Origin: an uncultured Rhodospirillales bacterium
GTDB lineage: Bacteria; Pseudomonadota; Alphaproteobacteria; Acetobacterales; Acetobacteraceae
NCBI GenBank assembly: GCA_945957135.1
Contig: CAMFLK010000002.1
Span: forward strand, 1-53,503
Direction of reading: 5' to 3'
Length of the DNA stretch: 53,503 nt
Shown here: in pieces, positions 4,071-6,357 of the stretch
How positions within the stretch are numbered: position 1 is the stretch's first letter
Layout of the letters: the number at the start of each line of letters is the position of its first letter
Notes under the pieces: generated by a model
What the model was told of the DNA's origin: nothing
Seen by the model: the letters and a program-made list of their open reading frames with translations, nothing else
Database searches by the model: none
Translations under genes and position numbers: made by a program

Positions 4071-4823
4071 TCACGCAGCGGTGCGAGCGTCGTTTTCCAC
4101 ACTCTGCGCCTCACTGTTGGGCATAGCCGGGGAGATGCCCGGTGCCGACGACGGCACTTCACGCATCGTGTAGCCACGTCCCCATACCGTGCTGATGAAA
4201 TTGCCCACTCCCGACGTAGCCAATTTTTTGCGCAGCTTGCAGATAAACACGTCAATGATTTTCATTTCCGGTTCATCTATACCACCATAAAGATGATTCA
4301 AGAACGCTTCCTTCGTTAAAATCATCCCTTTTCTCAATACCAACAACTCCAAAATGGCGTACTCTTTACCAGTCAGATGGATGGGCGTCGAATTTATGAA
4401 TACTTCGCGGCTATCGAGATTTATCTGCAACGGGCCAACGCGCAAAATCGGTTGACTAAACCCCTTGCTGCGGCGGACCACAGCTTGCATGCGCGCCAAG
4501 AGTTCGGCTTTGTCGAATGGTTTGGTGATAAAGTCATCCGCCCCCATTCCCAGGCCTTTCACTTTTGCTTGGGGCCGAGATAGGCCCGACAATATGAGGA
4601 CGGGAACGTCAATGCGGGCCGAGCGCATTCGGCGAACGACCTCATAGCCTTCCATGTCTGGCAACATGAGGTCCAATACGACGATATCGTAGTCGTAATG
4701 CCTTGCTAGTTCCAATGCCTCCTCTCCGTTGTCAGTTATATCGACAACCGATCCATTTGATTTCAGTGTCAGGGAGATGCCGCGCGCGGCAACAGCATCA
4801 TCTTCAACCAAAAGAACACGCAT
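4071..4823 (-). CDS. ctrA: Cell-cycle response regulator CtrA
   Basis: A 250-residue OmpR-family response regulator. The receiver domain has acidic pocket EDD (8-9), phospho-acceptor Asp51 in VVLDLMLPD, and Lys in ITKPF. The winged-helix DNA-binding domain carries the CtrA hallmarks [34 protein letters not shown] and VWGRGY. CtrA controls division, methylation and motility genes in alphaproteobacteria. A ~25-residue polar tail follows the conserved end. Base composition is noticeably more AT-rich than in genes outside this patch. It is divergent from fliI, and a CtrA-like half-site pair lies in the spacer, consistent with autoregulation and control of fliI. Confidence 0.93.
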
Positions 4824-4840
4824 TTCGTGTCTCCTCTATC

Positions 4841-4855
4841 TTAAGTTGTATTTTA
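4841..4855. promoter_or_regulatory. Near-match to the CtrA full site TTAA-N7-TTAA
   Basis: The spacer contains TTAA, seven bases, then TTTA: 7 of 8 fixed positions of the published CtrA motif. It ends 18 bases upstream of the ctrA ATG on the other strand and lies 76 bases upstream of the small ORF preceding fliI. In an AT-rich region such a match can arise by chance. Confidence 0.4.
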
Positions 4856-4930
4856 GCGCCAATTCACCCCGACATCCATAGTTTTTTCACGCATAGCGTG
4901 TAATTTCTTTATTAATTAAGGAGATTTTGT

Positions 4931-4996
4931 ATGAAAAATAAGACATTCCATAAGAATCAGCCTTCGACCCTAATTTTCTCGGGACGCTCTCAATGA
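4931..4996 (+). CDS. 21-codon upstream ORF coupled to fliI
   Basis: ATG at 4931 is preceded by a strong ribosome binding site (AAGGAG, 4918-4923, seven bases upstream). The frame encodes 21 residues beginning MKNKTFHKNQ and ends at TGA 4994-4996, which overlaps the fliI ATG (4993-4995) as ATGA. The sequence before the fliI ATG itself has no good binding site. I infer that ribosomes load at this ORF and reinitiate on fliI. The peptide is basic and resembles nothing I know. It is too short for composition-based gene finding; the evidence is the binding site plus the overlap. Confidence 0.55.
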   Translation: MKNKTFHKNQPSTLIFSGRSQ

Positions 4997-6357
4997 AGTT
5001 GACTTCGTTCATTCAGCGAATCGATGGCGCAATTGCTGCACTAGAATCCATTCGTTCTGCTGAAGCAAAAGGATACATAAATTCGGTTAATGGACTTTTA
5101 AGCAGAATATCCGGCCTATCTCGGGTTATCAAAATAGGCGATAGACTATGTATATATTTTCCAAACGGAAAAATGAATCTTTCAGAAATCGTCGGATTCG
5201 ACAAAAACGACTATGGCGAGATGATATGTTTTGAAATTGATCAGAATCTAGGTCCTGGCTGCTTGGTGTTTGCTGCTCTTCCGGCTCGCGCGGCGGGATT
5301 GGCGGTATCCGCGAACTGGATAGGCAGGGTGATAGACCCCCTTGGTCGGCCATTAGACAAGGCGGGCCCTCTCCTGCTCGCTCATGAACAAGCCAATCTG
5401 CACAGCCCCCCGCCGCCAGCCGCGGGTCGAGCTCGACTAGGACGACGTCTTGATTTGGGTGTCCGCGCGATGAACTTGTTCACGACTTGCCGCGAAGGAC
5501 AACGCTTGGGCCTTTTCGCAGCTGCGGGAGTTGGTAAGTCAACCCTTTTAGCCATGCTTGCACGCAACACACGCGCGGATGTTGTGGTGTTGGGGTTGGT
5601 GGGCGAACGAGGACGTGAGGTACGCGAGTTTCTGGAAGACGAGTTGGGAGCGGACGGCCTCGCCCGCAGCGTTGTCGTGGCAGCGACATCTGACACCTCC
5701 CCACTGATGCGTCGCGAGGCCGCCTACGCAGCAACGGCGATCGCTGAATATTTCCGGGCAAAAGGGCAACATGTGCTTTTGCTCGTGGACAGCGTGACTC
5801 GTTTTTGCCTGGCAGTGCGTGAGATTTGCCTTTCCGTCGGCCAAACGCCCGTCACACGAGGTTACCCACCGAATGTCTTTGCGGAGCTGGCCAACTTATT
5901 GGAGCGCTCCGGGCCGGGTGTGGAACACAATCTGGATGGGCATATTACTGCTTTATTCACCGTCCTTGTCGAAGGGGACGACATAAATGAGCCAATTTCG
6001 GACTCTGTAAGAGGAATTATGGATGGGCACATCATTCTCAATCGAAAAATCGCCGAACGTGGGCGGTTTCCGGCGATAGATATTCTCCGTTCAATTTCTC
6101 GAACCGTTCCTGGGTGTAATACCGACACAGAAAATGCCCTCGCTCGACGCGCCCGTTCTTTATTGTCAACCTATGAAGACATGGCAGATCTCGTAAGATT
6201 GGGAGCCTATCAGAAAGGCAGCAATAAAATTGTAGACGAAGCGATCGATTCGGCTCCCGCCATCGAATCCCTTATAAATCAACGGCGAACAGAAAAATCC
6301 GATATTCATGAAGATTTTAAGCAATTGGACATAATTTTAAATCATCACCCAAACTAA
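4993..6357 (+). CDS. fliI: Flagellum-specific ATPase FliI
   Basis: A 454-residue F1-beta-like ATPase that energises flagellar type III export with FliH and FliJ. Visible motifs are ANWIGRVIDPLGRPLD, P-loop GVGKST (~179-184), GLVGERGREVREF, Walker B LLLVDSVTRF, TRGYPPNVFAELANLLERSG, VLVEGDDINEPISDSVRGI and GCNT. These distinguish FliI from F1 beta. The P-loop prefix is AAAGVGKST where GSGVGKST is more usual. The length is normal and the frame intact. The 5' third and 3' third are AT-rich, while ~5270-5900 is GC-rich like the rest of the window. No fliJ or other flagellar gene follows. Confidence 0.92.
   Translation: MKLTSFIQRIDGAIAALESIRSAEAKGYINSVNGLLSRISGLSRVIKIGDRLCIYFPNGKMNLSEIVGFDKNDYGEMICFEIDQNLGPGCLVFAALPARAAGLAVSANWIGRVIDPLGRPLDKAGPLLLAHEQANLHSPPPPAAGRARLGRRLDLGVRAMNLFTTCREGQRLGLFAAAGVGKSTLLAMLARNTRADVVVLGLVGERGREVREFLEDELGADGLARSVVVAATSDTSPLMRREAAYAATAIAEYFRAKGQHVLLLVDSVTRFCLAVREICLSVGQTPVTRGYPPNVFAELANLLERSGPGVEHNLDGHITALFTVLVEGDDINEPISDSVRGIMDGHIILNRKIAERGRFPAIDILRSISRTVPGCNTDTENALARRARSLLSTYEDMADLVRLGAYQKGSNKIVDEAIDSAPAIESLINQRRTEKSDIHEDFKQLDIILNHHPN

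Follow-up and report, generated by a model that had tools for sequence, protein, structure and literature searches.

A 21-codon upstream ORF ending in the fliI start codon of an Acetobacteraceae genome: possible ribosome loading in a ctrA-fliI spacer

Known coupled upstream ORFs and divergent fliI genes

The mechanism of coupling, in which a gene is translated through an ORF that lies just before it, is already known, for example from uPPE2-PPE2 of Mycobacterium tuberculosis (PMC11260477). There, as at the fliI locus described here, a short, out-of-frame upstream ORF has its own Shine-Dalgarno site and overlaps the downstream gene by exactly AUGA, and the downstream gene has no Shine-Dalgarno site. 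The coupling of uPPE2 to PPE2 was shown by mutants and reporters, whereas here it is predicted from the sequence. The uPPE2-PPE2 pair is also located behind a B12 riboswitch, and no riboswitch was found at our locus.

The RTGA-coupled small proteins of mycobacteria (PMC4633059) are similar, being small ORFs without annotation in which the TGA overlaps an annotated gene at its start. The sequence of the peptide is said to be irrelevant to ribosome delivery in these cases (PMC4633059). Such pairs are over-represented genome-wide in mycobacteria and have ribosome-profiling support, whereas the ORFs in fliI spacers occurred at chance frequency unless a strong site was required. An ATGA stop-start overlap is also present in overlapping gene pairs that undergo termination-reinitiation (PMC6728339). 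It has been proposed that local structure at the downstream start blocks independent initiation in these pairs, as is predicted here; both partners are annotated genes there, while in our case a 21-codon ORF takes the upstream place.

As for fliI itself, the flgB2-fliI2 region of Rhodobacter sphaeroides (PMC6180460) also comes from an alphaproteobacterium, and fliI diverges there too from a short shared promoter region. The partner gene is flgB in that species and ctrA itself here; regulation was demonstrated there at the level of transcription, and the 5' leaders measure 12-33 nt. In other alphaproteobacteria CtrA is known to regulate flagellar genes (PMC6180460). Caulobacter crescentus often does without Shine-Dalgarno sites: 75.4% of its genes have none and are translated as well as those that have one (PMC4117421). 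Our literature search found no paper on a leader peptide of fliI.

The ctrA-fliI locus and its upstream ORF

The DNA analysed (the window, 53,503 nt) is contig C2, and the 4.4-Mb genome from which it comes belongs to the family Acetobacteraceae, as judged from its nearest named relatives. This genome was the only member of its genus among the genomes compared. The ctrA gene is on the minus strand at 4071-4823 (NF045991 CtrA, over its cut-off) and is divergent from fliI, which encodes a flagellar export ATPase of 454 aa at 4993-6357 on the plus strand. FliI passes the curated cut-off for FliI/YscN-family ATPases (TIGR01026, 470.8 bits against 379.5; subfamily fliI_yscN), and its top match is FliI_clade3 (E 2.7e-167), at 556.7 bits, which is below the equivalog cut-off of 587 for that model. 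FlhA is encoded in the same genome, which gives FliI an export apparatus to work with. Despite FlhA, FliJ (Pfam PF02050) had no match in the whole genome; it may be too divergent or may lie on a missing contig. The gene 3' of fliI encodes a mipZ-type ATPase (PF09140; 6358-7359), and no fliJ adjoins.

The spacer is poor in GC, with 35.5% as compared to 51% for fliI and 66% for the window (positions 4824-5060 compared with the window average). Just upstream of ctrA, the sequence TTAA-N7-TTTA at 4842-4856 differs by one base from the CtrA-type consensus TTAA-N7-TTAA. Autoregulation of ctrA through this candidate site is possible.

We observed that the upstream ORF extends from the ATG at 4931 to the TGA at 4994-4996 on the plus strand (4931-4996) and has 21 sense codons (MKNKTFHKNQPSTLIFSGRSQ). 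It has an initiation signal of its own, the Shine-Dalgarno site AAGGAG at 4918-4923 (plus strand), followed by the 7-nt spacer ATTTTGT and the ATG. This is the sole AAGGAG-N5-9-ATG of the 53.5-kb window, against 1.1 expected by chance window-wide. As read from the sequence, the stop codon of the ORF overlaps the start codon of fliI in the ATGA at 4993-4996 on the plus strand, and the only site that fliI has of its own is a GGA at a spacing of 8. The earlier note had described AAGGAG seven bases before the ATG, a fliI gene with no good site and a small ORF that stops within the fliI start codon, and all of this anatomy was confirmed. The MKNKTFHKNQPSTLIFSGRSQ peptide had no Pfam match and belongs to no peptide family that we found there.

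Chance expectation and the ORF in relatives

We gathered 80 divergent ctrA-fliI loci, and 79 of them (the source locus included) had a usable start. The fliI start was part of an xTGA in 47 of the 79 family loci, with or without an upstream ORF. This is frequent because residue 2 of FliI in relatives is usually R, K, S or T (it is lysine here), and with an xTGA in place any ORF in that frame must stop at the fliI start. ORFs that open with ATG, span 10 codons or more and end in xTGA were found in 8 of the 79 spacers, the expected number being 6.8 +/- 2.4. When a site of at least 5 nt was also required, three ORFs were left (those of the source locus, L007 and L156) against 0.23 expected; this excess should not be over-read, since the AGGTGA site of L007 is part of a conserved upstream element. 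In the whole set of spacers, 10 out-of-frame ATGs were preceded by a site of 5 nt or more, and three of these opened ORFs that end at the fliI start.

Chance was also estimated from 20,000 dinucleotide shuffles of the source spacer in which the fliI start was kept fixed. Of these shuffles, 7.2% produced an ATG-started ORF that had 10 codons or more and ended in the ATGA; in 0.095% such an ORF also had a Shine-Dalgarno match of 5 nt or longer, and in 0.015% a match of 6 nt. The ORF and its overlap are unremarkable by themselves, but their combination with a strong site is rare. In a scan of the window for a site, a short ORF and xTGA together, we observed two further cases, both at start codons that lie inside ordinary genes: one of 24 codons before 21105, within an AMP-binding gene, and one of 9 codons before 11628, within a GntR-type gene.

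The peptides of the xTGA-ended ORFs were mutually dissimilar when compared by eye. The L007 ORF (1174-1237) has 20 codons, a partial site and an ATGA at fliI, and the L156 ORF has 15 codons, a partial site and the same ending. Both are unrelated in sequence to the source ORF, so they are either convergent or due to chance. Among the five species of the L007 genus, ATGA-ended ORFs were present in two, with unrelated sequences, and absent from three. We rejected the L007 ORF as evidence of conservation: of its four congeners just L117 has an ATGA-ended ORF (15 codons, unrelated), and the lack of one in L115, L116 and L118 counts against conservation of the L007 ORF. DNA similar to the source spacer was found in none of the 396 other genomes of the family and in no plasmids; the closest FliI proteins were about 60% identical. 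Weak fliI sites were common among the relatives, also in those without a leader ORF, and at the same start position. The comparison with relatives that had been proposed in the earlier note thus turned out negative, with ORFs at the chance rate and unrelated peptides in relatives that all lie outside the source genus.

Leader RNA, transcript start and a conserved spacer element

We further examined the fold of the leader. At 4982-5010 on the plus strand, the fliI AUG is predicted to be paired within a hairpin (-7.0 kcal/mol locally). The AUG had an unpaired probability of 0.01-0.03 in six of seven fold windows, in which it ranked second to fifth lowest of the 79 loci. The predicted occlusion mildly favours a need for coupling, and it would be relieved by a ribosome translating the ORF. 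Against coupling, the occlusion vanishes in the longest fold window (unpaired probability 0.47), and equal occlusion was reached by 11% of synonymous recodings of the first fliI codons. The leader as a whole (4905-5060) had no unusual structure (z -0.32) and matched no Rfam family.

The position of the transcript start decides whether AAGGAG is in the mRNA; if transcription starts downstream of 4923, the site is absent from it. No sigma-70-like promoter was found on the plus strand by a consensus scan. Going by spacing alone, a promoter that used the conserved element described below as its -35 would place the start near 4928, with the site left out, while one that used TGTAAT at 4899-4904 as its -10 would place it near 4911, with the site inside the mRNA. 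In R. sphaeroides the CtrA-dependent flagellar transcripts begin just 12-33 nt upstream of the start codon (PMC6180460), and a leader of this length, if applied here, would exclude the ORF from the mRNA.

An alignment of eight spacers revealed a conserved element, TTTTTTCAC-N5-GCGTGTA, at 4882-4902 on the plus strand, inside which TTTCAC is invariant. In the same alignment, conservation is gone downstream of the element, throughout the ORF region. The element lies 96-103 nt upstream of fliI in a dozen relatives, compared to 108 nt at the source locus, and its positions were matched in L003, L004, L006, L011, L015, L023, L138, L139, L144, L175 and L211. At the source locus it contains the inverted repeat CACGC-ATA-GCGTG. 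A second, similar element, TACCAC-N5-CGTGTA, is often present further upstream in relatives. Both elements are probably shared regulatory or promoter sites of ctrA and fliI. Judged by the alignment, the common feature of these spacers is TTTTTTCAC-N5-GCGTGTA and not the ORF.

Competing explanations and significance

The explanation that we favour, with moderate confidence, is a lineage-specific upstream ORF that lies in the fliI leader and loads ribosomes, provided that transcription begins upstream of 4918. On such an mRNA, ribosomes would load at AAGGAG, translate the 21 codons and unfold the weak structure at the start codon of fliI. They would terminate at the UGA of the AUGA, and part of them would reinitiate at the overlapping AUG to produce FliI. 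The ORF would then be a constitutive device for ribosome delivery in which the peptide sequence would not matter; we saw no sign of a sensor. We infer that the ORF may be transcribed and translated, and that translation of fliI may make use of it. Termination-reinitiation coupling in the source genome is plausible because the ORF has a strong site, the ATGA is exact, fliI has no good site and its AUG is predicted to be paired. The occurrence of site, ORF and exact ATGA together in just 0.015-0.095% of the spacer shuffles argues for coupling; that the ORF is unconserved, and that relatives manage with weak fliI sites and without a leader ORF, argues against it.

A close rival, and one we regard as quite possible, is that an AT-rich spacer happens to contain this open stretch and that fliI, like its relatives, initiates on its own at 4993 with no Shine-Dalgarno site. 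The count in relatives (8 of 79 spacers, 6.8 expected) is consistent with this, as are the two further occurrences of the pattern inside ordinary genes of the window. The ATGA comes from the lysine at residue 2 of FliI (xTGA in 47 of 79), and the lack of a site is shared by many relatives that start at the same position and is normal in Caulobacter (75.4% of genes, PMC4117421), so neither of them alone argues for coupling. The 12-33 nt leaders of R. sphaeroides (PMC6180460) would likewise leave the ORF out of the transcript. What this explanation does not easily account for is the six-base site, perfect and correctly spaced, which arose in 0.015% of the shuffles and which, if transcribed, would almost certainly be used.

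It is very unlikely that FliI is gated post-transcriptionally in the source genus by a leader ORF beside the gene for CtrA, its likely transcriptional regulator, with independent devices of this kind in L007 and L156. Also very unlikely is a regulatory leader peptide, in which translation of the ORF would answer a signal and thereby gate FliI production. The anatomy and the adjoining ctrA are what speaks for such a peptide. Against it, frame, length, peptide sequence and codon pattern were unconserved in the 79 spacers and one other genus, no codon run could act as a sensor, and the RNA structure was ordinary (z -0.32) with no Rfam family. The anatomy given in the earlier note stands, but its proposal of a control point is unsupported, in view of the chance-rate ORFs, the unrelated peptides and the weak sites common in relatives.

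The ORF could also be an N-terminus of FliI split off by sequencing error, mutation or frameshift, and Acetobacter-type loci with GGAG and ATG directly before fliI superficially resemble 4918-4933; we rejected this as extremely improbable, since FliI translated from 4993 lines up, from its first residue on, with relatives that start at the same residue (L004, L007, L117, L138, L151, L156, L175, L196, L199 and others), leaving no N-terminal sequence missing, and since the fliI frame has a TAA at 4951-4953 and thereafter no ATG, GTG or TTG until 4993.

If the ORF does load ribosomes for fliI, it would be another short upstream ORF that feeds ribosomes to a gene without a site, in this case an alphaproteobacterial flagellar gene. 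The caution matters more: it is mostly the residue at position 2 that brings about the ATGA at fliI. The conserved element is the more interesting feature of the ctrA-fliI spacer than the ORF.
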